A program made the translations under genes and the position numbers. This document shows positions 21,801 through 35,031 of a stretch of 64,000 bases of DNA, piece after piece. The notes under the pieces were generated by a model that worked only from the letters and a program-made list of their open reading frames with translations, was not told where the DNA came from and searched no databases. The stretch lies in NCBI GenBank assembly GCA_902826455.1, contig CADEEV010000004.1, forward strand, positions 62,001 to 126,000, given 5' to 3'. The first letter of the stretch is position 1. Each line of letters starts with the position of its first letter. The DNA is from an uncultured Acidobacteriota bacterium (GTDB lineage: Bacteria; Acidobacteriota; Vicinamibacteria; Fen-336).

Positions 21801-22286
21801 TCAGCCCGCGAGGGCCACGCTCACCCAGGTCGGCGCGAGGAGCCGTTCCAGGTCGCGCACCGCGAGCCCGACCAGGAAGCCACGGCTGCCGCCGTTGATG
21901 TAGATCCGCGCGAGCTGCCGGATCGATCCCTCGGCGAAGACGGGCAGGGCACGGCGCGTGCCGAACGGAGACGTGCCGCCGAACACGCAACCCGTATGGC
22001 GCGTCGCCGTCTCCGGCGCGCAGAGCCCGACGGACCGGCGGCCGGCCTGACGCGCGAGGGCCTTCAGGCTGACGTCGCGATCGCCGTGCATCAGCACGAG
22101 GAGCGCCTCGCCGGCGTCGTCCTCCAGGACCAGCGTCTTCACCACGAGGTGCTCGTCCACCCCGAGCGCCCGCGCCGACGCGGAAGTGCCTCCGTGCTCC
22201 TCGTAACGATAGAGGTGCTCCGTGTAGTCGACCTGGTGCTGGCGCAGAAGTCGCACCGCCGGGGTCGAGGGGGCGCGGCCGCTCAC
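21801..22286 (-). CDS. ybaK: YbaK/EbsC-type aminoacyl-tRNA deacylase
   Basis: The 161-residue protein belongs to the YbaK/ProX editing family that hydrolyses mischarged tRNA, for example Cys-tRNA(Pro). Recognisable parts are the N-terminal STPAVRLLRQHQVDYTEHLY, VDEHLVVKTLVLED with the conserved Lys, and GCVFGGTSPFGTRRALPVF with the glycine-rich GTSPFG loop. GTG 22286 lies just after the stop of the CDP-alcohol phosphotransferase gene. It is the last gene of the minus-strand lipid cluster, with no obvious functional link to it. Confidence 0.9.
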   Translation of the reverse strand: MSGRAPSTPAVRLLRQHQVDYTEHLYRYEEHGGTSASARALGVDEHLVVKTLVLEDDAGEALLVLMHGDRDVSLKALARQAGRRSVGLCAPETATRHTGCVFGGTSPFGTRRALPVFAEGSIRQLARIYINGGSRGFLVGLAVRDLERLLAPTWVSVALAG

Positions 22287-22288
22287 GG

Positions 22289-23035
22289 CTAGGGTCGCTT
22301 GAGCTCCAGGAGGCGCGCCGAGATCCAGAACGTCCGGTGCGCCGCCGTGAGGAACGTGCCGACCGCGATCAGGGTCACGGTCCACAGGATCACGCTGCCC
22401 TGTGGCCGCCCCAGGGCGGCCGCGAGCGGCGCGTCGGCCAGGCACGCGAGGCACGAGAGGACCAGCCGCTCGGCCCTCTGCATCAGGCCCTCCTTGCACA
22501 GCACGCCCACGCTCTCGCCGCGGGCGCGCGTGTAGCTCACGAGCAGGGAGCCCGTGATCGCCCCGGCCGCCGCGAGCGGGCCCCAGGCGAAGCCGCGCAG
22601 GAAGACGACGAAGCCCAGGAAGGCGAACACCTCCACGAAGCGGTCGAGGGTGCTGTCGATGAACTTGCCGTAGCTCGAGTCGAGCTTCAGGGCCCGAGCC
22701 ATGCGGCCGTCGAGGATGTCGCACACGCCGCCGAGGGCGATCGCCCAGCCGCCCCACTCCACGCGCCCGCTGCCGATCAGGATGCCCGACAGCGCGCCGA
22801 AGGCCAGGCCCGCGAAGTTGAAGGCGTCGGGACCGACACCGAGCGCCAGGAACAGGCGCTCGGCCGGAGAGATCACCCACATGAACCAGTGGACGAGGAA
22901 GTTGCCGACGCCCATCACGAACTGGGTGCCCTTCTTCTCCGCGTCGGCGTCGCGGCGGCCCACGACCGCGTAGACCGCCATGGAGGCGCCGGCGAGCCCG
23001 AGAGCCCCGAGAAGAACCGACAGGGATGCCGTCAC
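22289..23035 (-). CDS. CDP-alcohol phosphotransferase family enzyme
   Basis: The 248-residue integral membrane enzyme transfers a phosphatidyl-like group from a CDP-lipid to an alcohol. The complete signature D-x2-D-G-x2-A-R-x8-G-x3-D-x3-D is present, with D106, D109, G110, A113, R114, G123, D127 and D131. Several hydrophobic helices surround it. The alcohol (glycerol 3-phosphate, inositol phosphate, serine or other) cannot be read from sequence. GTG 23035 starts one base after the stop of the Tam41-like nucleotidyltransferase gene, whose product would supply its CDP-lipid. Confidence 0.88.
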   Translation of the reverse strand: MTASLSVLLGALGLAGASMAVYAVVGRRDADAEKKGTQFVMGVGNFLVHWFMWVISPAERLFLALGVGPDAFNFAGLAFGALSGILIGSGRVEWGGWAIALGGVCDILDGRMARALKLDSSYGKFIDSTLDRFVEVFAFLGFVVFLRGFAWGPLAAAGAITGSLLVSYTRARGESVGVLCKEGLMQRAERLVLSCLACLADAPLAAALGRPQGSVILWTVTLIAVGTFLTAAHRTFWISARLLELKRP

Positions 23036-23036
23036 G

Positions 23037-24020
23037 TCAGAGATCCTTGTCCCGAAGATAGCGGAAGACGCGCGGCCAGAGAAACAGCAGCGGCCAGCGC
23101 CGCTCGCGGGACGTCAACTCGATCTTCTTGCCCGTGTGGCGCTCGGCCTTGCGCAGCAGGTAGTCGAGCCAGTCCTCGAAGGTCACGACGTACTTCGACC
23201 AGCGCAGGGTGGCCCGCACCAGGGAGCGGCGGAAGTAGCTCTCGACGGCCGCGCGCTCCCGGGAGCTCACCGGCGCCGCGAGGGCGTAGCGGCCCTCTCC
23301 CACGGCCCGGAGCGCCCCGTCCTCGGCGTAGGCCGCGAGCAGCCGCGAGTAGAGCGGCAGCAGCTCCTCTCGCTGGGCCTCGAAGAGCGCGTCCGAGCGC
23401 CCCCCCGGCTCGGGCCGGATCTCCTTCGAGAGCGACACGCGCAGCAGCGTCCGGCAGTAGGACTCGGCGTCGAAGCTCTCGGGCAGCCACGGCCGGATCC
23501 AGGCGAGCGTCACGGCGTGGGCGGAGGCGAGGGCCGCGAGCGCCTCGCCGCGAGCGCCGGGCTCCGCGGCATAGACGACCTGGGCCGGCTGGAAGAGCCG
23601 CCCCGCGCAGAAGTGGTCCCGGCGCTCCGTCGAGGTGTCGCGCGAGAAGGCCGCCCGGTCGATGACCGCGCACTTGCCGTGGAGCTCGCCGCCCGTCACG
23701 GCCATGCGGAAGGAGATCTGGTTCGGAGGCAGCCAGCTGTTGAGCCAGGCGAACAGCCCCGGCGAGCGCCGCTGCTTGCCCGCCGCGCGCAGCCCGCGAT
23801 AGAAGCGGCCGTACCCGTCGGTCAGGACGAAGAGATCGAAGGCGCTCCACTGGTTGCGGGCCGCCGCCCCGCTGCGCTGCGACCCGAAGAACACCACGCT
23901 CCGCACCGACCCCTGGCCGGCCTCGGCGATGGCCCGCGCCAGGGCCTCGGCCTCGGGACGCGCGGGCTCGCGGGACGCACGCTCGTCGACCAGGGCGCGC
24001 GCGACGTCAGGCGCGGCCAC
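23037..24020 (-). CDS. Tam41-like nucleotidyltransferase (putative CDP-lipid synthase)
   Basis: The 327-residue protein has a nucleotidyltransferase-like start SVRSVVFFGSQRSG (G46, S47) followed by SAFDLFVLTD (D62, D68). The middle reads LHGKCAVIDRAAFSRDTS and then DHFCAGRLFQPAQVVYA. The order K..VI....F..D...D...AGRL.KP..V matches my memory of mitochondrial Tam41, the soluble CDP-diacylglycerol synthase. No membrane helices of CdsA type are present. It lies between an acyltransferase gene (14-base overlap) and a CDP-alcohol phosphotransferase gene, exactly where a CDP-lipid synthase is needed. Function is inference from motif order and context. Confidence 0.6.
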   Translation of the reverse strand: MAAPDVARALVDERASREPARPEAEALARAIAEAGQGSVRSVVFFGSQRSGAAARNQWSAFDLFVLTDGYGRFYRGLRAAGKQRRSPGLFAWLNSWLPPNQISFRMAVTGGELHGKCAVIDRAAFSRDTSTERRDHFCAGRLFQPAQVVYAAEPGARGEALAALASAHAVTLAWIRPWLPESFDAESYCRTLLRVSLSKEIRPEPGGRSDALFEAQREELLPLYSRLLAAYAEDGALRAVGEGRYALAAPVSSRERAAVESYFRRSLVRATLRWSKYVVTFEDWLDYLLRKAERHTGKKIELTSRERRWPLLFLWPRVFRYLRDKDL

Positions 24021-24786
24021 GCCGCTCCCGCATCTCGCGAAGATGGTGCACCATCCGGCTCCGGCAATCCTCGACGAATGCCGGCAGCTCCGCTTCGGCC
24101 TCGGGGGGCCGGAAGGGCCCGAGCACCTCCACCTCGCCGCGCAGCTTGGGAACGTTCGCGAGGAAGTCCACGAAGCGGCGGCCTTCCCACAGACCGTCGA
24201 GCACGACGAGATGCACGGGCACGCGGCGCGCGGCCAGGCTCGCGATCGTGCCGGCGGCCCGGAACGGCCGGATCTCGCCGTCGACGGAGCGGTGGCCCTC
24301 GGGGAACACCACGAGGCCATGGGGCTGACGCGCGGCCGACTCGCGCATCGCCTCGACGGCGCCACGCGCGTCGCGCCGGGGATCCACCACGGGGCATTCG
24401 AGCAGCCAGATGGACGGCGCGACGAGCGGGATGAACCAGCGCGTGTAGAGGCGCCGGGGCACGTAGGCCGGGCAGTAGGGGCGCGCCATCAGCGTCGCGA
24501 TCGGGATGTCGAGCTGGGACTGATGGTTCATCAGGATCAACGACGGCCCGGCCGTGGGAATCACGCCCCGCAGGTCGAAGCGGGCGCCTCCCAGCTTGAA
24601 GAGGCCCAGGATGCCCCAGGACATCCAGCGCATGAACCAGGAGACGAGGCCGCGCCGGCCCCCGCGCCAGAGGGTGGCCACGGGCAGCACGAAGAGGTAG
24701 CAGAGCGGGGCGTTGACCGCGAACCACAGCACGACCGCGAGGAGCGAGAGCGCTCCGCGCAGGGGTCGCAGCACGCCCTTCGCCAC
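24007..24786 (-). CDS. PlsC-type 1-acyl-glycerol-3-phosphate acyltransferase family protein
   Basis: The 259-residue membrane acyltransferase has an N-terminal hydrophobic stretch (about residues 10-40), the catalytic NHQSQLD (87-93), and FPEGHRS (161-167) for glycerol-phosphate binding. GPSLILMNHQSQLDIPI is a typical PlsC segment. It could make phosphatidate from lysophosphatidate, or acylate another lipid acceptor given the sphingolipid-like genes upstream. GTG 24786 is one base after the lipid kinase stop. Its 3' end overlaps the Tam41-like gene by 14 bases. Confidence 0.88.
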   Translation of the reverse strand: MAKGVLRPLRGALSLLAVVLWFAVNAPLCYLFVLPVATLWRGGRRGLVSWFMRWMSWGILGLFKLGGARFDLRGVIPTAGPSLILMNHQSQLDIPIATLMARPYCPAYVPRRLYTRWFIPLVAPSIWLLECPVVDPRRDARGAVEAMRESAARQPHGLVVFPEGHRSVDGEIRPFRAAGTIASLAARRVPVHLVVLDGLWEGRRFVDFLANVPKLRGEVEVLGPFRPPEAEAELPAFVEDCRSRMVHHLREMRERRGRA

Positions 24787-24787
24787 G

Positions 24788-25741
24788 TCAGGCCCCCGTC
24801 GGCACGAGGACGTCGAGAGCCGCGGGCACGCTCTCGACGCGCACGGTCGCGGAGCTGGCCCGGTTCCATTCGCCGTCGGTCTCGTAGGCCGGAGGCGCGT
24901 CGAAGCGCAGCTCGAGGGAGCGCGTCTGCGTCGCCTCGACGTGGGGCGACGCCGCGTGGGTGCCGGCCATGAGCTTCTGCATGATCGCGAGGCGCGCCCA
25001 GAAATCCATGTTCGCGAAGGCGACGACGTCCAGCTTCCCGTCGGCCAGGTCCGCCTCGGGCGCGATCTTGAAGCCGCCGCCGAAAACCCGGGCGTTCGCG
25101 ATCACGAGCATCAACATCCCCTTGCGGACGGCCGGGCCGCCGTCCGCGGCCACGTCGACCGAGAAGCCGGGGAACGAGCGCAGCTGGCGCAGGGCGCAGT
25201 AGAGGTACAGGAGGCTGCCCTCGAGATACGACACGCTCCACGAGTCCTCGAGCACGGCCACGTCGTAGCCGAAGCCGGCGATGTTCAGGAAGTGTCGGCC
25301 CTCGACGCGGCCGACGTCGATCGTGCGCACGTGACCGGCCGCCACGATCGCGGCACAGCCCCGCACGTCGCTGGGCGGGATGGCCAGGGACTTCGCGAGG
25401 TCGCAGCCGGTGCCGCCCGGCACGAGGCCGAGGCGCGCCCGCTTGCCCGAGGCGAGGATCGCGTTCCCGACGTGGCTCCAGGTGCCGTCGCCCCCCACGG
25501 CCACGATCGTGTCGTAGCCCTGGGCGATCGCCTCGGACGTGAGACGACCCTCGTCGCCGGCCTTGGTGGTGAGGCCGTGCCCCACCTCGAGCCCGTGCCC
25601 CTTCAGGGCCTCCAGCACCGGGGTCACGAAGCGCGCCCCGCGTCCCTTCCCCGACCGCGGGTTGAAGACGACGAAGACGCGGCTCAGACGGTCTGGAGGG
25701 TGATGAGCGGGTCGAAGGTCTGCTTGCCGTCGCGCATCCAC
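24788..25741 (-). CDS. diacylglycerol/sphingosine kinase-like lipid kinase
   Basis: The DAGK catalytic domain is clear: FVVFNPRSGKGRG, TIVAVGGDGTWSHVGNAIL with the GGDGT loop, and GLVPGGTGCDLAKSL. NIAGFGYDV and GGGFKIAPEADLADG complete the lipid kinase pattern. The family phosphorylates diacylglycerol, ceramide or sphingoid bases. The start is uncertain: the only canonical start near the conserved core is GTG 25741, inside the preceding gene by 58 bases. A CTG at 25685-25687 would give a CTGA junction and the expected N-terminus SRVFVVFNPRSG. It is placed between the decarboxylase-like gene and plsC-type gene. Confidence 0.85.
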   Translation of the reverse strand: MDARRQADLRPAHHPPDRLSRVFVVFNPRSGKGRGARFVTPVLEALKGHGLEVGHGLTTKAGDEGRLTSEAIAQGYDTIVAVGGDGTWSHVGNAILASGKRARLGLVPGGTGCDLAKSLAIPPSDVRGCAAIVAAGHVRTIDVGRVEGRHFLNIAGFGYDVAVLEDSWSVSYLEGSLLYLYCALRQLRSFPGFSVDVAADGGPAVRKGMLMLVIANARVFGGGFKIAPEADLADGKLDVVAFANMDFWARLAIMQKLMAGTHAASPHVEATQTRSLELRFDAPPAYETDGEWNRASSATVRVESVPAALDVLVPTGA

Positions 25742-26361
25742 AGCTCGCGGAAGGGCACGTCGTAGACCTCGCCGATCTCCAGCGGCTTGTTGAAGGCGTG
25801 GTCGTGGAGCACGAGCTTGCCGAGCTCCTCTTCGTGCTCGCTCTGCTGGCCTTCCATCACGATCTGCGCGAGGTAGGCGCCCTGATCGTTCTTCATGAAC
25901 GACTGATAGAGGTGCGACACCGGCTGCCATGAGTGGTCGCCGATCGTCAGGTCCGCGACGGCGTCACCGCCCGAGGCGACGTGGGCCGTCACCAGGTGTC
26001 CGTTCTTCTCGAAGCGGACGTCCACGTCCTCCATCCAGTGCGGCAGGTGCCAGCGCTCGATGGCGTGCTCGCGGGCCGCCTTCGTGGTGGTCGCGACCTG
26101 GTACGGGAAGAAGGCCGACTTCGGCAGGCGCTCGCCGGGCTTGACGAGCGGCGAGACGATCACGGCCATCACGACCTCGCCGTAGCTGCCGACCATGCTC
26201 TCGTTGAAGTCGAACACGGTCATGGCGAATATGCTCGTGCCGTGGTGCGGCTCGACGGGCTCGAGGTGCGAGGGCAGGATGCGGCGGGCGTTCTCGGTCG
26301 GGAACTCGAAGAAGCCGCTGATGGCGTCCGCGTAGCCGTAGCGGGTCTTGCCGTCGTTCAC
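25684..26361 (-). CDS. acetoacetate decarboxylase-like superfamily protein
   Basis: The 225-residue soluble protein begins near GTG 26361, overlapping the stop of the serine palmitoyltransferase-like gene (GTGA). Segments such as YGYADAISGFFEFPTENARR, FAMTVFDFNESMVGSYGEVV and FPYQVATTTKAAREHAIERW resemble the acetoacetate decarboxylase fold, whose members include decarboxylases, aldolase-dehydratases and lipid-binding-type proteins. I cannot confirm the catalytic Lys by eye. Tight coupling to the condensing enzyme suggests it acts on the keto product or on its precursor. The reaction is unknown. Confidence 0.65.
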   Translation of the reverse strand: MNDGKTRYGYADAISGFFEFPTENARRILPSHLEPVEPHHGTSIFAMTVFDFNESMVGSYGEVVMAVIVSPLVKPGERLPKSAFFPYQVATTTKAAREHAIERWHLPHWMEDVDVRFEKNGHLVTAHVASGGDAVADLTIGDHSWQPVSHLYQSFMKNDQGAYLAQIVMEGQQSEHEEELGKLVLHDHAFNKPLEIGEVYDVPFRELWMRDGKQTFDPLITLQTV

Positions 26362-27638
26362 TGAATGATCCCTTCCTCGCGCAAGACCGAGCCGATCGTC
26401 TGGGTCGCGAACTCGAGCTCGGCCTCGGTGTGGGCGGCGGAGATCGAGATGCGCAGCCGGGACTTGTGCTTCGGGACCGCCGGGTAGGTGACGGGCTGCA
26501 GGTAGAGGCCGCGGTCCTGGATCTTCTCGGCCACCGCGAACACCCGCGCGTCGTTGTTGATGAGCACCGGCATGACCTGGGACGTCGACTTCCCGATGTC
26601 GATGCCCTCTTCCGCGAAACGCCGCCGCATGTAGGCCACGTTGCTCCAGAGCTTCGCGCGCAGCTCCGGCTCGTTCTCCGCGATCTCGAGGCCGGCCTTG
26701 AGGCCCGCCGCGATCATGGGCGCGAGGTTGCACGAGAAGAAGCGCGAGCGGCCGAAGGCGTTCACGTAGTCGATCAGGTCTTTCGAGCCGCACACGAAGC
26801 CGCCCTGGCCGCCCAGGCTCTTCGAGAACGTGCCGAGGTGGAAGTCGACCTCCTTGTCGAGGCCGAAGTGCTCCGCGACGCCGCGGCCGTTCTGGCCGAA
26901 CAGGAACGTCGAGTGGGCCTCGTCGATGAGGATGCGGGCCCCGTGACGCTTCGCGACCTCCACGATCTCGGGCAGCGCGCACACGTCGCCGTCCATGGAG
27001 TAGACGCCCTCGACCACCACGAGCTTCTTGCCCGTGCACTTGAGGAGCTTGCGCTCCAGGTCCATGGGGTTGTTGTGGCGGAAGAACGTGGTCTTGGACT
27101 TCGCGAGGATCGCGCCGTCCACGATCGAGGCGTGGGAGTACTGGTCGAGCAGGATCGAGTCGCCGGCGCGCATCAGGGCCGAGATGAAGCCGACGTTCGC
27201 GCTGTAGCCGGTCGGGAAAAGGATGGCGGCCTCCTTGTCCTTGAAGGAGGCGACCGAGTCCTCGAGCTCCTTGTGGATGTCCAGGGTGCCCGAGAGGATC
27301 GGCGAGCCGGAGGCGCCCAGGCCGTACTTCTCGATGGCGGCGATCGCGGCCTGCTTGACCTCGGGCCGGTAGGAGATGCCCAGGTAGTTGTAGGAGGCCA
27401 GGTTGAGGAGGTCGACCAGCTTCCCGTTCTTGCGGTTCTTGACCGTGACGCGGGTCGTGGGGGCGGTCTGGAGCGGCTCCGAGTACAGGTAGTACCCGTT
27501 CGGGAGGGCCTCCGCGTACCACTCGGAGAACGGCTTCAGCAGGTTCAGGGGATCGTCGCCGGCCCCGTAGTAGAAATTGCTGTAGTCGTACTCGGCGAAG
27601 GCCGTCTTGCCGGCTTCCTTCTTGTGGGCCGCCTCCAT
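26358..27638 (-). CDS. alpha-oxoamine synthase, serine palmitoyltransferase-like
   Basis: The 426-residue PLP enzyme condenses an amino acid with an acyl thioester. The PLP Lys lies in FHLGTFSKSLGGQGGFVCGS at about Lys273; IDEAHSTFLFGQNGRG and YSHASIVDGAILAKS are also family motifs. The TFSKSLG site resembles serine palmitoyltransferase more than KBL or BioF, and a reductase-type SDR lies directly upstream, so a long-chain-base role is likely. GGGAGAGG before ATG 27638 is a good ribosome-binding site. BioF- and KBL-type roles cannot be excluded; no biotin or threonine genes are near. Confidence 0.72.
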   Translation of the reverse strand: MEAAHKKEAGKTAFAEYDYSNFYYGAGDDPLNLLKPFSEWYAEALPNGYYLYSEPLQTAPTTRVTVKNRKNGKLVDLLNLASYNYLGISYRPEVKQAAIAAIEKYGLGASGSPILSGTLDIHKELEDSVASFKDKEAAILFPTGYSANVGFISALMRAGDSILLDQYSHASIVDGAILAKSKTTFFRHNNPMDLERKLLKCTGKKLVVVEGVYSMDGDVCALPEIVEVAKRHGARILIDEAHSTFLFGQNGRGVAEHFGLDKEVDFHLGTFSKSLGGQGGFVCGSKDLIDYVNAFGRSRFFSCNLAPMIAAGLKAGLEIAENEPELRAKLWSNVAYMRRRFAEEGIDIGKSTSQVMPVLINNDARVFAVAEKIQDRGLYLQPVTYPAVPKHKSRLRISISAAHTEAELEFATQTIGSVLREEGIIQ

Positions 27639-27742
27639 GCTTTACCTCTCCCGGCGCCAAACGACGAGGCGCTCACCCCTGAACAGAAGGCGCGATTTTA
27701 GCAGCCGAGGTGCAGGACGGGAAGCCCTCTTCCGAAAAAACC

Positions 27743-28525
27743 CTAGGGCTTGGGCTCGAACATCTTGGCAGCCACATACTTGGAGACGGACTGCGGTGTG
27801 AGTCTCTGGGCCGCGACGGTGGCCCGGTTCAGCCATCCGGTGACGATCCGCTCCTTGCCGCGATCGAGGCCGGCCAAGGACTCGGCCACCACGGCCTCCG
27901 GGGTCTGGGTCGTGGTCTTGTTGAACGGCACCTGGTCCGTCCCGGCCACCTGCTGGAACTCGGTGGCCGTCAGCCCCGGGCACAGCGCCTGGACTCGGAC
28001 CCCGCTCCCCCGCAGCTCGAACGCCACCCCGTCCGTGAAGGACAGGAGGAAGGACTTGCTGGCCGCGTAGGTGGACATGTACGGGACGGGCTGGAAGGCC
28101 GACGTGGACACGACGTTGATGAGGGCGCCTCGCTTGCGGGCCACCATCCCCGGCACGAAGCGCCGGGTCATGAGGACCGTCGCGCGCACGTTGAGGTCCA
28201 GCATGGCCAGGATCCGGTCCTCGGGCTCCTCCACGAAGCGCCCGGTGTGGCCGACGCCGGCGTTGTTCACGAGGGTGTCGACCCCGAGGCCCCGGGCCTC
28301 GAGCGTCGCGGCCAGCTCGGCGACGGCCCGCGGCTGCGCGAGGTCGGCCGCGACAACCGCCACGTACTCGGAGCCTCCCAGCTCGGCGGCCAGGGCCTCG
28401 AGCCGATCGACGCGGCGCGCCACGAGGATCAGGCGCTCCCCCCGAGCCCGAAGCGCCCGGGCGAACGCCGCGCCGATACCCGCCGAGGCGCCGGTGACGA
28501 GAGCCCGCAGGTCCGCGGCGGCCAC
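27743..28525 (-). CDS. short-chain dehydrogenase/reductase
   Basis: The 260-residue classical SDR has the cofactor loop VTGASAGIGAAFARAL (residues about 9-24), NNAGVGHTGRF, and catalytic Ser with YMSTYAASKSFL (Tyr-x3-Lys). It ends with family-typical LCPGLTATEF. Its position between the radical SAM gene and the serine palmitoyltransferase-like gene suggests the 3-keto reduction step of long-chain-base synthesis, as in bacterial ceramide loci. Other fatty-acyl reductions are equally compatible with the fold. A 104-base gap separates it from the next gene, with a T6 tract just after its stop but no strong stem. Confidence 0.82.
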   Translation of the reverse strand: MAAADLRALVTGASAGIGAAFARALRARGERLILVARRVDRLEALAAELGGSEYVAVVAADLAQPRAVAELAATLEARGLGVDTLVNNAGVGHTGRFVEEPEDRILAMLDLNVRATVLMTRRFVPGMVARKRGALINVVSTSAFQPVPYMSTYAASKSFLLSFTDGVAFELRGSGVRVQALCPGLTATEFQQVAGTDQVPFNKTTTQTPEAVVAESLAGLDRGKERIVTGWLNRATVAAQRLTPQSVSKYVAAKMFEPKP

Positions 28526-28534
28526 GCGCGCGCC

Positions 28535-29590
28535 CTAGCCGGCGAGGACGCTGTCGGACGCGGGCGTCGGAGCCGGCACTTCGGCCGCGGCCGGAGCCGT
28601 CGACGGCACGCGCGGCCGGAGCGGCAGCATCGCGATCGCCTTCTGCGGCGAGCGCCAGTTGTCCAGGATCGCCGTCTGCTGGACGCAGTTGACCGTGCAG
28701 TACGCGGCGCACGACTTCTTGGTCCCGTACTCGCGCCGCAGGTCGGCTTTCCCGTAGTCCGCGAGGGGAATGCCGGGCTTGCCGCGCTGCTGCGAGCAAT
28801 AGCTCACGATCCCGCCCTCGTCGACGTAGAGGTAGCGGGCGCCGGCGCGGCAGCTCCACTCGTTCGACACGCCTTTCGCCAGGTTGTCCTGGAAGAAGTG
28901 GTTGAAGCGCAGGATGCCGCTGCGCGAGTACGAGCGCAGCGTCTCGTAGACCTTCATCTCGCGCTCGCCCAGCGGCTTCAACTGGCCGTGGCCGTCGTGG
29001 ATGATGCCGATCGAGCTCATGAAGCCGAGCTCGCGGGCGCGCTTGGCCACCGTCAACGCGTCCTCGGGATTGCGCACGCCGCTGCCCACCACAGAATTGA
29101 TGGCCACCGTGAAGTCGGCGTGCTCGGCGAGCCACTTGAGCTTGGGCTCGAGGAGCCGGAGGCTCTTCATCGAGCTCTCGTCGGGCTCCACGTTGTCGAC
29201 GCTGATCTGCAGGTGGTCGAGGCCCGCGGCATTCAACTGCTCGATGCGCTCGCGGGAGAGGTAGTAGCCGTTCGTGATCAGCGTGACGAACAGGCCGCGC
29301 TGGCGGCCCCGGGCCACCAGCTTGTCGAGGTCGGGGTGCATCATCGGCTCGCCGCCGCTGAACGTCATCACCGCCGTCCCCAGGTCCGCGAGCTTGTCGA
29401 TGCGCGCCAGCAGCGCGTCCGTCGGCACGGGCTTCGAGACCGCGTCGTACTCGTTGCAGTACGCGCAGGAGAGGTTGCAGCGCCGCATCGGGATGAGGTG
29501 GACCAGCACCGGGTGGTGCCGGTCGAGGAGGGCCCAGGCCATCTTGCCCGCGATGCGCAGCGTGCGGTGCAGCCGTGTGGACAGCTTCAT
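28535..29590 (-). CDS. radical SAM protein with C-terminal Cys-rich (SPASM-like) region
   Basis: The 351-residue enzyme has the [4Fe-4S] motif CNLSCAYC (Cys38, Cys42, Cys45), GGEPMMHPDLDKL for SAM binding, and a later Cys cluster including YCSQQRGKPG, CAAYCTVNCVQQ, likely for extra Fe-S clusters. The last 40 residues are Ala/Pro-rich. This architecture modifies peptides, lipids or tRNA; the substrate is not visible. It is the first gene of the minus-strand lipid cluster, 9 bases before the SDR gene. A TGCTATCAT -10-like sequence lies upstream near 29620-29630. A lipid-modifying role is inference. Confidence 0.8.
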   Translation of the reverse strand: MKLSTRLHRTLRIAGKMAWALLDRHHPVLVHLIPMRRCNLSCAYCNEYDAVSKPVPTDALLARIDKLADLGTAVMTFSGGEPMMHPDLDKLVARGRQRGLFVTLITNGYYLSRERIEQLNAAGLDHLQISVDNVEPDESSMKSLRLLEPKLKWLAEHADFTVAINSVVGSGVRNPEDALTVAKRARELGFMSSIGIIHDGHGQLKPLGEREMKVYETLRSYSRSGILRFNHFFQDNLAKGVSNEWSCRAGARYLYVDEGGIVSYCSQQRGKPGIPLADYGKADLRREYGTKKSCAAYCTVNCVQQTAILDNWRSPQKAIAMLPLRPRVPSTAPAAAEVPAPTPASDSVLAG

Positions 29591-29702: not shown

Positions 29703-30809
29703 ATGGCAAACCTGGCCGCAGCCAACGTGATGCACCGCAAGACCCGCACGGCGGTGTCCGTGTTCGCGGTGGCCATGGAAGTCGCGATGGTCATGATCCT
29801 GGTCGGGATGGCGAACGGCACCCTCGGCGACATCGCCGGCCGATTGCAGAACGTGGGCGCCGACGTGCTGTTCCAGCCCCCCGACGCCTCCTTGATCCTG
29901 GGCGCCACGAGCGCCGTGATGCCGGTCAAGTTCGTCGACCTGATGCGCGAGGTCGAGGGCGTGAAGGACGTGGCGCCCGTGCTCAACTGGCACGTCTCGC
30001 AGATCAAGGGCGAGTCCCGCGCGGTCAACCTGTGGGCCGTCGACTACCCTTCCTTCAGCCGGATCTCCGGGGGCCTCGACCTCGTCTCGGGGCACGCGCT
30101 CCAGGGACCGGACGAGCTGATGATGGACACGGTGCTGGCCAACGCCACGGGGATCAAGGCCGGCGACGCGCTGCACATGCTGAACCGCGACTTCCGCGTG
30201 GCGGGGATCTTCCGCGCCGGCGCCGGCGGCCGTCTGTATGCCCGCCTCGAGGACATCCAGGCCGCGATCGGGACGCCCGACAAGGCGTCGTTCTTCCTGA
30301 TCAAGGGCACGTCCGCCCTGGCCGCGGACCGCCTCACGGAAGCCCTCCAGGCTCGTTTCAAGGGCTACAAGATCACGCCCATGGCCCAGGTCTCCAAGGT
30401 CATGCAGCAGAACGCCGTGGGACTCGAGCAGTTCAAGACCGCGCTCACGGGCATGGCGGTCGTGATCTCCTTCCTGGTGGTGCTGCTCGCGATGTACACG
30501 ACGATCATCGAGCGCACCCGCGAGATCGGGATCCTGCGGGCGATCGGGGCGGGACAGGCCACGGTCGTGCGGCTGGTCGTGACCGAGAGCTTCCTGATCT
30601 GCGCGGCCGGCGTCGTGGTCGGCATGGCGCTGGCCGTGGGCACCGCGCTCTACCTGCCCCGGATCTTCCCGACCCTCGCGGTCACCCTGAGCCGGGAGTG
30701 GGCCGCGATCGCGGCGGCGCTCGGCATCGCGGGGGGCCTGCTGGGCTCGATCTACCCTGCCGTCAAGGCGGCCCGGATGGACCCCATCCAGGCCCTCAAC
30801 TTCGAATGA
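29703..30809 (+). CDS. ABC transporter permease, MacB/FtsX type
   Basis: The 368-residue membrane protein has an N-terminal TM segment (about residues 18-38), a long periplasmic domain (about 40-240, including the MacB-like RVAGIFRAGAGGRLYARL), and three C-terminal TM segments (about 255-280, 300-325, 335-355). It ends YPAVKAARMDPIQALNFE, the FtsX C-terminal motif. ERTREIGILRAIGAG is the coupling helix typical of MacB-type permeases. No ATPase lies beside it. GGAGAGG precedes ATG 29703. It diverges from the radical SAM gene and is followed by a methyltransferase gene. Confidence 0.87.
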   Translation: MANLAAANVMHRKTRTAVSVFAVAMEVAMVMILVGMANGTLGDIAGRLQNVGADVLFQPPDASLILGATSAVMPVKFVDLMREVEGVKDVAPVLNWHVSQIKGESRAVNLWAVDYPSFSRISGGLDLVSGHALQGPDELMMDTVLANATGIKAGDALHMLNRDFRVAGIFRAGAGGRLYARLEDIQAAIGTPDKASFFLIKGTSALAADRLTEALQARFKGYKITPMAQVSKVMQQNAVGLEQFKTALTGMAVVISFLVVLLAMYTTIIERTREIGILRAIGAGQATVVRLVVTESFLICAAGVVVGMALAVGTALYLPRIFPTLAVTLSREWAAIAAALGIAGGLLGSIYPAVKAARMDPIQALNFE

Positions 30810-31484: not shown

Positions 31485-33434
31485 GTGTCGCTGGCGCGCG
31501 TCGCCGTCTTCAAGCTCGGTCCCAACGACACCGAGCACCTGCGCGGCTTCCGGGACGACTGGGAACGGGACGGCGCCACCATCTTCCGTTGGACGACCCC
31601 TTCGGCCCGCATCGACCTTCCCCTTCATGTAAAGGGTGAGGGTTTGCGGCTCAGGCTGCGGGCCCGTCGGCATTTCGTCGAGCCCGCCCAGGTGCGGCTC
31701 GGACTCGAGGGCCGGACCATCGGCGTCTTCGCCATCCAGGCCAACGACCGCGAACCCTATCGCATCTACGAGTTCGCCCTGCCTCCGCTCGAGGGCCAGC
31801 ACCGCTTCGCGCTGTCGATCGAGTCGTCGTCCGAGAACCCCCGGCCGCTCGGCCTGGCCCTGGACTGGATCGAGATCGTGACCCCCGAGCGGCGTGCCTT
31901 CGCCCTCGCTCCGGCGGCAGCCCTTCGCGGCGCCGTCGTGGGTCTCGTCGCGGTCGCGGCTCCCGTGCTCGCCGGTGGCAGCCTCGCTCTCGCCGGTGCT
32001 CACGGCGCTCTCGTCGTCCTGGCCCTGCTGGCCGGCGCCGCGGCCGATCCCCTGGCCGTGGAGCGCATCCTGAGAAACGGGACTGGCCCCTACGCGATCG
32101 CCGGCCTCCTCGCGTGCGTGCTCCTGTACGCCTTCCGCGGTGCGGGAGCCTTCACCGCCGATGCCCGCGGACCGTGGCGGCGCTCGGCCCTGGCGGTGCT
32201 GGTCCTGCTGGCCGTCGCGCTGCGCCTAGCCCTGCTCCTCCACCCGCGCTTCTACTATCCCGACGTGCGCATCCACGGCCTCTTCGTACGGGAGCTCGCG
32301 CGCACCGGGTTCGTCGCGTTCATGGAACACTTCACGGACAACCAGTTCCGCTACAGCCTCGGGCTTCAGTTCGAGAGCGGGCACTGGTACGCCTTCCCTT
32401 ATCCGCCGGTCTTCTACCTGCTGTGCGGACCCTTGGTGACCCTGTTCCGGTACTCGCCGGAGGTGGCAGCCGCGATCCTGCCCTCCGTCGTCAACGGCCT
32501 CGAGGTGCTGGCGGTCTTCGCGATCGCGCGGCTGCTGGGTCTCGCCGCCGGCTCGGCGCTGGCCGCGGCGGCAACGGTCCCCCTCCTGCCATTGCTGCTC
32601 GTCCGGCTCTCCCTCGCCTACTTCCCCGCCATCACGGGCCATGGCGTCGACGTGCTCGTGATCCTGGCGGTGCTCGCGTTCGCGCCCCGTTTCCAGCGCG
32701 CGCCGGCCATCGTGACGATTGCTGGCCTCGTCGCGCTCGCGTTGCTGACGTACACGCAGTCCCTCGTCAACCTCGGGCTCCTGCTGCCGCTGTTCCTGCT
32801 CCTGCAGCTCTTCTTCGACCGCGGGCCGGGCGCATGGCGTCGCCACGGCGCCTTCGCACTCGCGGGAGCGCTCGGAGCGCTGCTCGCCGTCGGCGTATTC
32901 TACGGCCGCTACGTCCCCGTCTTCGTCGACATGCAGGGCGGCGTGCCGATGGCCGGAGAGGCGATCGTGCTCGAGCGCCTGGAACGTCTGCATGCGGTGC
33001 AACCGGAAGCGAACGTCGAAGAGCACGACGATCCGTACGCACAGCCCAACACGGATCTCTGGCGCGGCGTGCGCAAGGCGGGCTATCGCGTCTGGATCTT
33101 CTACGGGCCGCTGGCGATCGCGATCGCGATCGGTTTTCTAATGCTGATCAAAAGATCCGAGCCGATGCTCGCGCGCTTCGTGTGGGCGTGGGGCGCCAGC
33201 TTCGTCCTGATCTGCATCGGTTCCGGGGGATTCCCCGGGCCGAACCTTTTGCGATACGCGAAGGAACTGGAGCTGGTCGCGCCGCTGTGCGGGATCGCGA
33301 TCGCGATCGTGGGCGCGTGGCTCGCCGCGCGCTCGCGTCTGGCTGCAGTGCTCTACGCGGCAGGCGCGCTCGCGTACGGTGTGATGCGCTTGCTGACGAT
33401 CTGGAGCGAGCGCGTCACGACCCTGACGCGCTGA
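31485..33434 (+). CDS. multi-span GT-C-like membrane glycosyltransferase
   Basis: The 649-residue product (from GTG 31485) has an extracytoplasmic beta-rich part at residues about 5-130, then about ten or more TM helices. The loop after an early TM carries FYYPDVRIHGLFVRELARTG, matching the acidic first-loop motif of GT-C glycosyltransferases, and YAFPYPPVFYLLCGP is typical of PMT-like proteins. It probably transfers a sugar from a polyprenyl donor. The frame remains open upstream to the methyltransferase and encodes KTGLVLLATLLGGLTPAI, a likely membrane anchor, so the true start may be non-canonical or lost to a frameshift. No Shine-Dalgarno sequence precedes GTG 31485. Confidence 0.72.
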   Translation: MSLARVAVFKLGPNDTEHLRGFRDDWERDGATIFRWTTPSARIDLPLHVKGEGLRLRLRARRHFVEPAQVRLGLEGRTIGVFAIQANDREPYRIYEFALPPLEGQHRFALSIESSSENPRPLGLALDWIEIVTPERRAFALAPAAALRGAVVGLVAVAAPVLAGGSLALAGAHGALVVLALLAGAAADPLAVERILRNGTGPYAIAGLLACVLLYAFRGAGAFTADARGPWRRSALAVLVLLAVALRLALLLHPRFYYPDVRIHGLFVRELARTGFVAFMEHFTDNQFRYSLGLQFESGHWYAFPYPPVFYLLCGPLVTLFRYSPEVAAAILPSVVNGLEVLAVFAIARLLGLAAGSALAAAATVPLLPLLLVRLSLAYFPAITGHGVDVLVILAVLAFAPRFQRAPAIVTIAGLVALALLTYTQSLVNLGLLLPLFLLLQLFFDRGPGAWRRHGAFALAGALGALLAVGVFYGRYVPVFVDMQGGVPMAGEAIVLERLERLHAVQPEANVEEHDDPYAQPNTDLWRGVRKAGYRVWIFYGPLAIAIAIGFLMLIKRSEPMLARFVWAWGASFVLICIGSGGFPGPNLLRYAKELELVAPLCGIAIAIVGAWLAARSRLAAVLYAAGALAYGVMRLLTIWSERVTTLTR

Positions 33435-33440
33435 CGGTCG

Positions 33441-34283
33441 CTAGCCCTCGTCGTTCATCAGTTCCTCGATGATCGCTTGCAGTGCGTGCACGATCTCCTC
33501 GCGAGGAACCTGCGCCTTCTTGAACTGGAGCGAGAGCGCGAAGCTCTTCTCCCGGGGCTGGTATTTGAAGACGAAGTGCTTCGGGCGGCCGCGCTGAGGC
33601 TTGGCCTTCTCTTCCTTGACCACGCGCCGTGCCGCCTCGCGGGTGAAGCCTTCGGTCTGGAGACGCTCGATCAGCGCCACCATTTTCTGAGGATCGCCCT
33701 GGCGAACGATCTGCAAGAGCAACGACTTACCGTGAATGTCGGCCAGCCGACAGAGCTGCCGAACCTCTTCTGGCATCGCGGTCAGGGATAGCGTTTCCGT
33801 GAGTCCCGTGCGGCTCTTTCCGAGCCTCTCGGCCATCTTCTCGTGGGTGTAGCCATACGTCTCGGTGAGGATCCTCAAGGCATCCGCTTCCTCGAACGCG
33901 CTCAGGTCCTTGCGCTGAAGGTTCTCGATCAGCGCGAGCTCCATCGTCTCCGCATCGGAGCTGTCGCGGACGACGCAGGGGATCTCCGCGATCCCGACTT
34001 CCTGAGCCGCGCGGAAGCGGCGCTCACCCGCGATGATCTGGAACCGGCTTCCGACGGGCCGCACCAGGATCGGCTCGAGGATGCCTTTCTCGCGCAGCGA
34101 CGACACCAGCTCCGAGAGATCGCCCATCGCCTGTCGTGGCTGGTTGGGATTGGGGTCGATGTCTTCGATGGGCACGAGCTGGCCGAAGGGCTGGCCGCTG
34201 GGACGCGTGAGCTGATCCACGTAGTGCGTGTCGTGGCGCATGCGCAGGGTTTCGGGCAGGCCGGAGCGCCGGATGCTAGACAC
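33441..34283 (-). CDS. parB: chromosome partitioning protein ParB
   Basis: The 280-residue ParB/Spo0J protein contains the CTPase/clamp region with GERRFRAAQEVG and IENLQRKDLSAFEEADAL, then a HTH domain (MAERLGKSRTGLTETLSL). The C-terminus with FALSLQFKKAQVPREEIV is not the usual ParB dimer domain. It starts at GTG 34283 and overlaps parA by 8 bases. ParB binds parS sites and loads condensin near the origin. I did not find a canonical TGTTCCACGTGGAACA-like site in this window. Confidence 0.9.
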   Translation of the reverse strand: MSSIRRSGLPETLRMRHDTHYVDQLTRPSGQPFGQLVPIEDIDPNPNQPRQAMGDLSELVSSLREKGILEPILVRPVGSRFQIIAGERRFRAAQEVGIAEIPCVVRDSSDAETMELALIENLQRKDLSAFEEADALRILTETYGYTHEKMAERLGKSRTGLTETLSLTAMPEEVRQLCRLADIHGKSLLLQIVRQGDPQKMVALIERLQTEGFTREAARRVVKEEKAKPQRGRPKHFVFKYQPREKSFALSLQFKKAQVPREEIVHALQAIIEELMNDEG

Positions 34284-35031
34284 GTTCGATGACCTCCTCG
34301 CAGAGCCGGTAGTACTCGTACGCGCCGGTGGACTGCGGAGCGAAAGTGAAGATCGACTCGCGGTGCGCGGGGCTCTCTTCGAGGCGGATGCTCTTGCTGA
34401 TCGTGGTCTGGAAGATACGATCCCCGAAGACGTCGGCGATCGCCTTCTGGACGTCGCGCGCGAGCGTCGTGCGCTTGTCGTGCAGCGTGATCACGGCTCC
34501 GAGCAGCTTCAGGTTCGGGTTGGGCCGCGAGCGGATGCGCTCCACCGTCTCGAGCAGGTCGTCCGTGCCCTCGAGCGCGAAATAGCTGGACTGGACCGGC
34601 ACCAGCAGGTGGGTGGCGGCCACGAGGGCGTTCACCGTGATCAGGCCGAGCGCAGGAGGCGTGTCGATCACGACGAACTCGTAGGTGTCCTTCACCGCAT
34701 CGAGCTTGTCCTTCAACCGGAAGTGCGCGTCGAGCTCGCCCACCAGCTTGGCTTCGAGCTTCGCGAGTGCGATGCGCGAGGGCGCCAGGTCCAGGTTCGG
34801 AACCTTGCTCGGAACCACGACGTCGGCGATCGGCAGGCCGTCGCCGATCACGTCGTACATCGACTTCTGCAACGCGCGAATGTCGACGTAGGTCATGGAG
34901 GAGTTCGCCTGCGGATCCAGGTCGATGAGCAGCGTGCGACGTCCACGCATGGCGAGCGCGGCGGCCAGGTTGATCGCTGTGGTGGTCTTCCCGACGCCGC
35001 CCTTCTGGTTCGCGATCGCGATGACGATCAA
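34276..35031 (-). CDS. parA: chromosome partitioning ATPase ParA
   Basis: The 251-residue ParA/Soj P-loop protein has the deviant Walker A KGGVGKTT (residues 10-17), IDLDPQANSS, and VVIDTPPALGLITVNAL. No N-terminal HTH is present, so it is the chromosomal Soj type. TTG 35031 gives the standard MIVIAIANQKGG start. It works with ParB in origin segregation. The gap upstream (35032-35136) shows no parS site. Confidence 0.93.
   Translation of the reverse strand: MIVIAIANQKGGVGKTTTAINLAAALAMRGRRTLLIDLDPQANSSMTYVDIRALQKSMYDVIGDGLPIADVVVPSKVPNLDLAPSRIALAKLEAKLVGELDAHFRLKDKLDAVKDTYEFVVIDTPPALGLITVNALVAATHLLVPVQSSYFALEGTDDLLETVERIRSRPNPNLKLLGAVITLHDKRTTLARDVQKAIADVFGDRIFQTTISKSIRLEESPAHRESIFTFAPQSTGAYEYYRLCEEVIERV

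Follow-up and report, generated by a model that had tools for sequence, protein, structure and literature searches.

Several described bacterial systems come close to the locus analysed here, a cluster of nine open reading frames (ORFs), all on the minus strand, at 21801-29590 of a 64,000-nucleotide stretch of DNA from an uncultured soil bacterium of the phylum Acidobacteriota, class Vicinamibacteria (the window; it lies on contig C4 of the draft genome G000, 5.26 Mb in size). Bacterial ceramide loci, such as the one of E. coli BL21, encode serine palmitoyltransferase (SPT), an acyl carrier protein (ACP), an acyl-AMP ligase, an epimerase-type reductase and an N-acyltransferase. The ceramide phosphoglycerate locus of Caulobacter (CpgABC and the ceramide genes) combines sphingolipid genes with a lipid kinase, CC_1161, which has a cytidine diphosphate-diacylglycerol (CDP-DAG) synthase domain, and CC_1159, which has a CDP-alcohol-type domain (PMC11324152). 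A ceramide activated by a nucleoside diphosphate has been suggested for this organism (PMC11324152), and its ceramide kinase, CpgB, has been assayed (PMC10331486). In Bacteroides thetaiotaomicron, BT_1522-1526 include a CDP-alcohol phosphotransferase (BT_1523) of the phosphatidylinositol-phosphate synthase (PIPS) type in a pathway ending in an inositol sphingolipid; it runs from CDP-DAG through PIP-DAG to PI-DAG, and the step to phosphoinositol dihydroceramide is assigned to BT_1522 (PMC9246714). In the alternative inositol lipid cluster of Bacteroides vulgatus and Prevotella, a nucleotidyltransferase adjoins the CDP-alcohol phosphotransferase; this NTP_transferase is proposed, without confirmation, for CDP-inositol, alongside a HAD hydrolase (PMC9246714).

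The window's locus resembles each of these in part. Like the ceramide loci, it pairs an alpha-oxoamine synthase (AOS) from the SPT side of its family with a ketone reductase, but neither an ACP nor an acyl-AMP ligase is among the nine proteins, no YghO-family gene was found in the genome, and a classical short-chain dehydrogenase/reductase (SDR) replaces the epimerase-type reductase. It has a sphingolipid enzyme, a lipid kinase and nucleotide-activating and CDP-alcohol-type enzymes in common with Caulobacter, whose proteins we compared by description; the activating enzyme here has a predicted Tam41 fold, and the SPT clade, the acyltransferase (YghO/bCerS-type, not found here) and the head-group enzyme differ. 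The PIPS-type enzyme recalls B. thetaiotaomicron, and the nucleotidyltransferase next to it B. vulgatus, where the assignment to CDP-inositol differs from what the Tam41 fold suggests here. A search of open-licence papers returned nothing on this cluster, one unrelated paper for CDP-ceramide combined with a cytidylyltransferase or with ceramide phosphoinositol, and nothing on bacterial Tam41. The idea of an activated ceramide is already in print for Caulobacter, and the cluster would be a variant of it.

We propose that the locus is a dedicated operon for a phosphosphingolipid made through a CDP-activated sphingoid lipid, a reading to which we give an even chance. Its ORFs are, in order of transcription:

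28535..29590, minus strand: radical SAM protein by Pfam, 351 aa; best NCBIfam models PqqE/MoaA-like, all far below cut-off; accessory
27743..28525, minus strand: SDR reductase, 260 aa; Pfam adh_short 2.2e-48; candidate 3-ketosphinganine-type reductase
26358..27638, minus strand: SPT-like AOS, 426 aa; Pfam aminotransferase-I/II; conserved N-terminal extension of DYSNFYY type; core
25684..26361, minus strand: protein of the acetoacetate decarboxylase (ADC) fold (ADC-like), 225 aa; GTG start; Pfam ADC 4.2e-6, below cut-off; core
24788..25687, minus strand: lipid kinase, 299 aa; DAGK_cat and YegS_C; TIGR00147 169 bits against a cut-off of 118.65; CTG start assumed
24007..24786, minus strand: PlsC-type acyltransferase, 259 aa; Pfam acyltransferase above cut-off
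23037..24020, minus strand: Tam41-like nucleotidyltransferase (NT) by predicted fold, 327 aa; candidate CTP:lipid-phosphate cytidylyltransferase
22289..23035, minus strand: CDP-alcohol phosphotransferase (CDP-AP), 248 aa; CDP-OH_P_transf; PIPS type
21801..22286, minus strand: Cys-tRNA(Pro) deacylase of YbaK/EbsC type, 161 aa; Pfam tRNA_edit; NCBIfam 147.6 bits against a cut-off of 153.25

This is the gene order, on one strand, that a first-pass annotation made from the letters alone had described. Seven of its labels are backed by Pfam matches above cut-off (radical SAM, SDR, the aminotransferase-I/II fold of AOS, DAGK with YegS_C, acyltransferase, CDP-OH_P_transf and tRNA_edit); the ADC match is below cut-off, and NT is Tam41-like by predicted fold only. 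The ends said to be mostly overlapping are so at three of the eight junctions: AOS/ADC-like (4 nt, GTGA), ADC-like/kinase (4 nt, CTGA, provided that the kinase starts at CTG 25687) and PlsC/NT (14 nt). The remaining genes are closely spaced, with four gaps of 1-9 nt (radical SAM/SDR 9, kinase/PlsC 1, NT/CDP-AP 1, CDP-AP/YbaK 2) and one of 104 nt (SDR/AOS). We assumed the CTG start because every ATG, GTG or TTG alternative either loses the N-terminal motif of the kinase or runs far into the ADC-like gene.

In the proposed pathway, AOS would join a long-chain acyl thioester and an amino acid, serine, into a 3-keto sphingoid base, serine being favoured because the later steps require a primary hydroxyl. 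The ADC-like protein would act as a lysine-free partner of AOS that binds or converts the keto product, the SDR (a zinc-dependent alcohol dehydrogenase, ADH, in one genus) would reduce the ketone, and PlsC, where encoded, would acylate. The DAGK/YegS-type kinase would then phosphorylate the C1 hydroxyl, the Tam41-type NT would convert the lipid phosphate to CDP-ceramide or a CDP-long-chain base, and the PIPS-type CDP-AP would replace CMP by a phosphorylated polyol, inositol 1-phosphate being the most likely one. What the analysis shows are the genes, their conservation, their kinship and the predicted fold of NT; the reactions, the substrates and the sequence of steps are inferred. The series of kinase, NT and CDP-AP suggests a progression from hydroxyl to phosphate, CDP-lipid and phosphodiester, and as the set also includes a ketone reductase and an AOS from the SPT side, a sphingoid base or ceramide made from serine would be the simplest lipid that offers a primary hydroxyl. 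More tentative, and in our view doubtful as a whole, is the full version in which Tam41-type and PIPS-type enzymes give a phosphoinositol sphingolipid directly, by way of CDP-ceramide or a CDP-long-chain base and without bCerS, a dedicated ACP or a transferase that moves phosphoinositol, with the lysine-free ADC-fold protein as obligatory partner of AOS.

Evidence that these genes act together comes from their conservation. We searched 193 genomes of the class, most of them drafts, for AOS orthologues (E 1e-150 or better; the next best match was 4.9e-91) and counted tblastn matches at most 6.5 kb away; gene calls in relatives were made with a custom codon scorer and then checked by tblastn. 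The orthologue occurs in 21 of the 193 genomes: 12 from the window's family, two from a second family and seven from one genus (g64) of a third. Next to it we found the ADC-like gene in all 21, the kinase and CDP-AP in 19 each, NT in 18 (in G003 as a piece only), PlsC in 15 and a reductase in 19 (12 with SDR and seven with an unrelated zinc ADH). In g64 the genes form two divergent operons, CDPAP-NT-PlsC and AOS-ADC-kinase-ADH, complete in six of seven genomes, the contig of the seventh starting at AOS; the ADH is in the operon in all seven and the SDR was not found there. This exchange of SDR for ADH fits a ketone-reduction step, and the persistence of the gene set despite the rearrangement is strong evidence for joint function. 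With 21 genomes and the g64 rearrangement as a basis, it is very unlikely that the core genes are neighbours by chance, YbaK excepted. YbaK, near AOS in one of 21 genomes, was rejected as a pathway gene and is a neighbour only; the radical SAM gene, in five of 21, was rejected as a core gene. The first-pass description was a good one, though too large by two genes, and the locus itself is conserved: co-occurrence, which it had named as a check, holds for the core, with PlsC missing from three otherwise full clusters.

At the thresholds used, two of the genes are, within the class, nearly confined to genomes with the cluster. The ADC-like gene occurs in 22 of the 193 genomes (E<=1e-8), the 21 cluster genomes and G001, where contig C261 carries NT, CDP-AP and a piece of the ADC-like gene. 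NT was found in 19 of the 193 (E<=1e-6), all of them cluster genomes or G001, in a search that in many genomes scored part of the first-look candidates. The kinase, PlsC and the reductases are members of large families. A scan of 396 genomes of the phylum for the ADC-like protein gave eight matches, seven from the clusters of the class and one partial and weak (G455, 5.2e-9). Phyla beyond Acidobacteriota were covered solely by a pattern-based AOS scan suited to close relatives, which found four Vicinamibacteria/Acidobacteria metagenome-assembled genomes with identities of 79-83%; the remaining 41 loci had at most 44%, and at most 40% over useful lengths. In G003 (C138:215895-216805) the NT gene is in two pieces, one with an internal stop, which is either real or an assembly break.

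The assignment of NT comes from its predicted structure. It has no match in Pfam (E<=0.1), NCBIfam (E 0.001) or a PDB profile search (E<=10). Its AlphaFold model (pLDDT 76.5, pTM 0.73) retrieved Tam41 at Foldseek ranks 1-5 (4.8e-7 to 3.6e-6; next match 4.7e-4), and VIA gave a Z of 17.0 over 243 residues at 3.5 Å with the Firmicutes Tam41 with CTP-Mg (7ecd), 15.3 with mitochondrial Tam41 and 8.0 with the next fold. The likeness lies in the overall fold, with nucleotidyltransferase and helical parts, whereas identity is 10-13% with no match at the sequence level. S59, D62, K116, D135 and G140-R141-L142 are invariant in 16 sequences. Tam41 is a CDP-DAG synthase, which converts phosphatidate and CTP to CDP-DAG. 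The model thus makes NT a candidate CTP:lipid-phosphate cytidylyltransferase, for which we propose a different lipid substrate, and upholds the Tam41-like label that the first-pass annotation had given it; the fold makes it less likely that NT forms CDP-inositol, the role proposed in B. vulgatus. The genome also encodes a CdsA-family protein.

CDP-AP is closest in profile searches to a PIPS fusion (5d92, 1.3e-23) and a CDP-DAG-inositol phosphatidyltransferase (6h53, 4.6e-23), and far from a glycerophosphate transferase (7drj, 4.5e-4). Its motif DX2DGX2AR...GX3DX3D is intact, with D106, D109-G110, A113-R114, G123, D127 and D131 invariant in 17 sequences, as are R172, R187 and R190, the arginines of the PIPS-type RAR/RAER motif, which in PIPS hold the phosphate of the acceptor. 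The NCBIfam PIPS cut-off of 170 bits is missed by CDP-AP (92), and also by a second PIPS-type enzyme of the genome (L162:2683-3321; 115) and by an enzyme of G008 linked to inositol-phosphate synthase (MIPS; 147). This kinship favours inositol phosphate as the likeliest head group, and MIPS is encoded in the genome. Because the genome has both a CdsA-family protein and a second PIPS-type enzyme, the cluster copies are extra and probably dedicated.

The closest PDB relatives of AOS are the SPT chains 3a2b and 8guh (312 bits); next come an enzyme annotated as BioF/KBL (249) and further SPTs (at most 248). The GTFSK lysine, which binds pyridoxal phosphate, and the stacking histidine are kept in the window and its 20 orthologues. 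We built trees of 48 and 35 rows, hand-chosen from about 80, with BioF references as long branches. In both trees AOS forms one clade with AOS proteins of the same class encoded in polyketide synthase (PKS)-type loci, and this clade is in turn the sister group of the known SPTs, among them 3a2b and, in the 35-row tree, E. coli BL21 Spt (support in that tree 95/89). AOS lies outside the known SPT clade, and a tree joining the two without the PKS-locus proteins was rejected (p 0.0038). The enzyme, which the first-pass annotation had called SPT-like, is so in the sense of being sister to the known clade; use of serine and a long-chain acyl thioester is a prediction from this position, and kinship with BioF or KBL, the outcome named as fatal to the earlier reading, is disfavoured, though the test values given below are not firm. 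A Black Sea survey has applied the term 'Spt-like' to a clade broader than the known SPTs (PMC11334938).

The PKS-type loci that contain these relatives (L108, L109 and L110, e.g. L110:8980-18191) encode an AOS with a similar N-terminal extension. That of L110 also has an ACP, a ketosynthase, an acyltransferase, an HMG-CoA-synthase-like protein, two enoyl-CoA hydratase-family proteins, a FabA-like protein and SDRs, and is a fatty-acid/PKS-like cluster with an oxoamine synthase, perhaps one for beta-branching.

The ADC-like gene adjoins AOS in 21 of 21 genomes, and in the window it shares 4 nt with the end of AOS. The protein scores 26.9 bits with Pfam PF06314 against a gathering score of 29.8. 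Among 100 genomes scanned, the score is passed by the orthologues of G002 (31.7) and G103 (34.6) and, together with neighbouring pieces, in G003, G011, G013 and G015; it is not reached in G004, G008, G009, G010, G016 and G102, and G005, G007, G012 and G105 have no match. Acetoacetate decarboxylase works through a Schiff base on a catalytic lysine pair (PKK). No column of the 18 aligned cluster sequences has lysine in more than nine, and the stretch that corresponds by eye to GYPKK, present in six of the seven ADC-family proteins from the class used as references (of 12 loci fetched; all six from one family), reads WHLPHW. Conserved residues are E19, E37, H39, H40, E177, H188, R205 and E206. 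Lacking a conserved lysine, the protein should not employ the Schiff-base mechanism, and we rejected acetoacetate decarboxylase activity; its first-pass label holds for the family at most. That it is a partner of AOS or handles its product is a guess. Its structure model (pLDDT 41) was too poor for a fold search, a PDB profile search gave one chance match (E 0.81), and an HH comparison with the reference ADCs, both profiles being shallow, gave a probability of 1.8.

The acylation step is uncertain. In E. coli BL21 the gene of YghO, a presumed N-acyltransferase, neighbours those for Spt, ACP, acyl-AMP ligase and epimerase, and YghO is 35% identical to a protein encoded next to an SPT in a different family of the class. 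The YghO family, which we take to be bCerS, has no match in the window's genome at E<=1e-6; among the 21 cluster genomes, 15 have none, five a strong one (G005, G007, G011, G012 and G013) and one a weak one (G010, 2.3e-17). We equated YghO with the N-acyltransferase 'aca' by comparing the BL21 gene order with PMC9386255, where an aca-type role in E. coli is worded as 'might'. No PP-binding domain was detected in the nine proteins or in eight flanking ones, distant ACPs not being searched. This agrees with the first-pass remark that known loci have a different acyltransferase and an ACP close by. As no YghO-type gene was found, a different enzyme would form the amide if the product is a ceramide, and the cluster's PlsC is a candidate except in the three clusters that lack it. 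We rejected the cluster as a strict replacement of the canonical ceramide locus, because G011, G012 and G013 have both it and a YghO-family gene. In G011 a CerR-like reductase lies beside that gene, with no SPT in that stretch. L113, from a different family of the class, is a more canonical SPT locus: it encodes an SPT (509.5 bits, cut-off 500), a YghO-family protein, an epimerase-type reductase and a PAP2 phosphatase.

Several observations weigh against the proposed pathway. AOS falls below all NCBIfam SPT cut-offs (370.9/640, 339.8/500 and 264.8/670 bits), as it does below those for bioF (363/426), KBL (337/460 and 286/493) and ALAS (254/339), and its nearest relatives outside the cluster lie in fatty-acid/PKS-type loci. 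Placing it with BioF, KBL or GCAT costs 16-23 log-likelihood units, with p values in the approximately unbiased test of 0.044, 0.082 and 0.054, so its kinship with SPT is a preference and no proof. The NT model was built from four sequences. The assignment of an N-acyltransferase is uncertain, because PlsC enzymes form esters and because three clusters (G004, G009 and G010) have AOS, ADC, SDR, kinase, NT and CDP-AP but no PlsC, nor space for it between kinase and NT. G007 has AOS-ADC-CDP-AP, and G005 (68% complete, with a contig end near) AOS-ADC only, both without kinase and NT; the absence of NT, PlsC and CDP-AP in G104 carries no meaning, since its contig starts at AOS. MIPS occurs in 23 of 26 genomes searched, the window's own included, with or without the cluster, and thus supplies inositol phosphate without singling the cluster out. 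Finally, Pfam recognised none of the nine proteins as a phosphatase that could act on a phosphoinositol-phosphate product.

These points leave room for other products. Whether or not the sphingoid tail is made as proposed, the CDP-activated lipid could be CDP-DAG, with kinase, PlsC, NT and CDP-AP building an ordinary or unusual glycerophospholipid such as phosphatidylinositol phosphate, whose head group would later be moved to ceramide, as happens in Bacteroides, or have nothing to do with the AOS product. Relatives of Tam41, PlsC and PIPS do use glycerolipids. B. thetaiotaomicron has a PIPS and a separate transferase for phosphoinositol dihydroceramide (PMC9246714), but Pfam revealed no transferase of that type among the nine proteins, a CdsA-family protein and a second enzyme of PIPS type are already encoded in the genome, NT was found only alongside AOS, and G007 retains CDP-AP with AOS-ADC though kinase and NT are gone. 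We consider this route unlikely. A sphingoid phospholipid that carries a different head group or lacks N-acylation, for example a CDP-long-chain base O-acylated by PlsC, would accord with the ester chemistry of PlsC and with the failure to identify an N-acyltransferase (no YghO/bCerS-type match in 15 of 21 genomes), yet three otherwise full clusters do without PlsC and the PIPS kinship points to inositol phosphate; it is distinctly unlikely.

We give little credence to a scheme in which AOS forms the head group, as a small, aminoacetone-like amino ketone that the ADC-like protein trims, SDR or ADH reduces and CDP-AP couples to a CDP-lipid. The ADC family name speaks for it, as do the AU value for grouping with KBL (0.082, not firmly rejected) and the g64 ADH, for which threonine dehydrogenase (122 bits) is among the best NCBIfam models, second to a Zn-dependent oxidoreductase model (124.5 bits), all below cut-off. 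However, no lysine is conserved in the ADC-like protein, AOS is closest to SPT, and CDP-AP retains R172, R187 and R190. The sphingophospholipid by a different route that the first-pass annotation had offered as one possibility is supported in part.

If true, the pathway via a CDP-activated sphingoid lipid would be a second bacterial way to phosphosphingolipids, in which the sphingoid lipid itself is CTP-activated as in glycerolipid synthesis, by an enzyme type familiar mainly from mitochondria. Inositol sphingolipids would then also occur in a phylum common in soil, and the pathway would offer a testable case for the activated ceramide proposed for Caulobacter and give the acetoacetate decarboxylase fold a new role. 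Surveys that require Spt, bCerS and CerR together would miss such producers.

The surroundings of the cluster include an FtsX/MacB-type permease at window 29703-30809, divergent from the operon. In L086, L088 and L089, genes downstream of CDP-AP are sized like two FtsX permeases, an ABC ATPase and an HlyD protein (L086:393-4765; domains examined in L086), and these neighbours are possibly a lipid exporter. Farther along the window, 31485-33434 encodes a 649-aa protein that is hydrophobic by eye and has no Pfam match at E 0.001. It is followed, about 4 kb from the operon, by ParB and ParA genes (33441-35031), which may mark the region of the chromosome origin.

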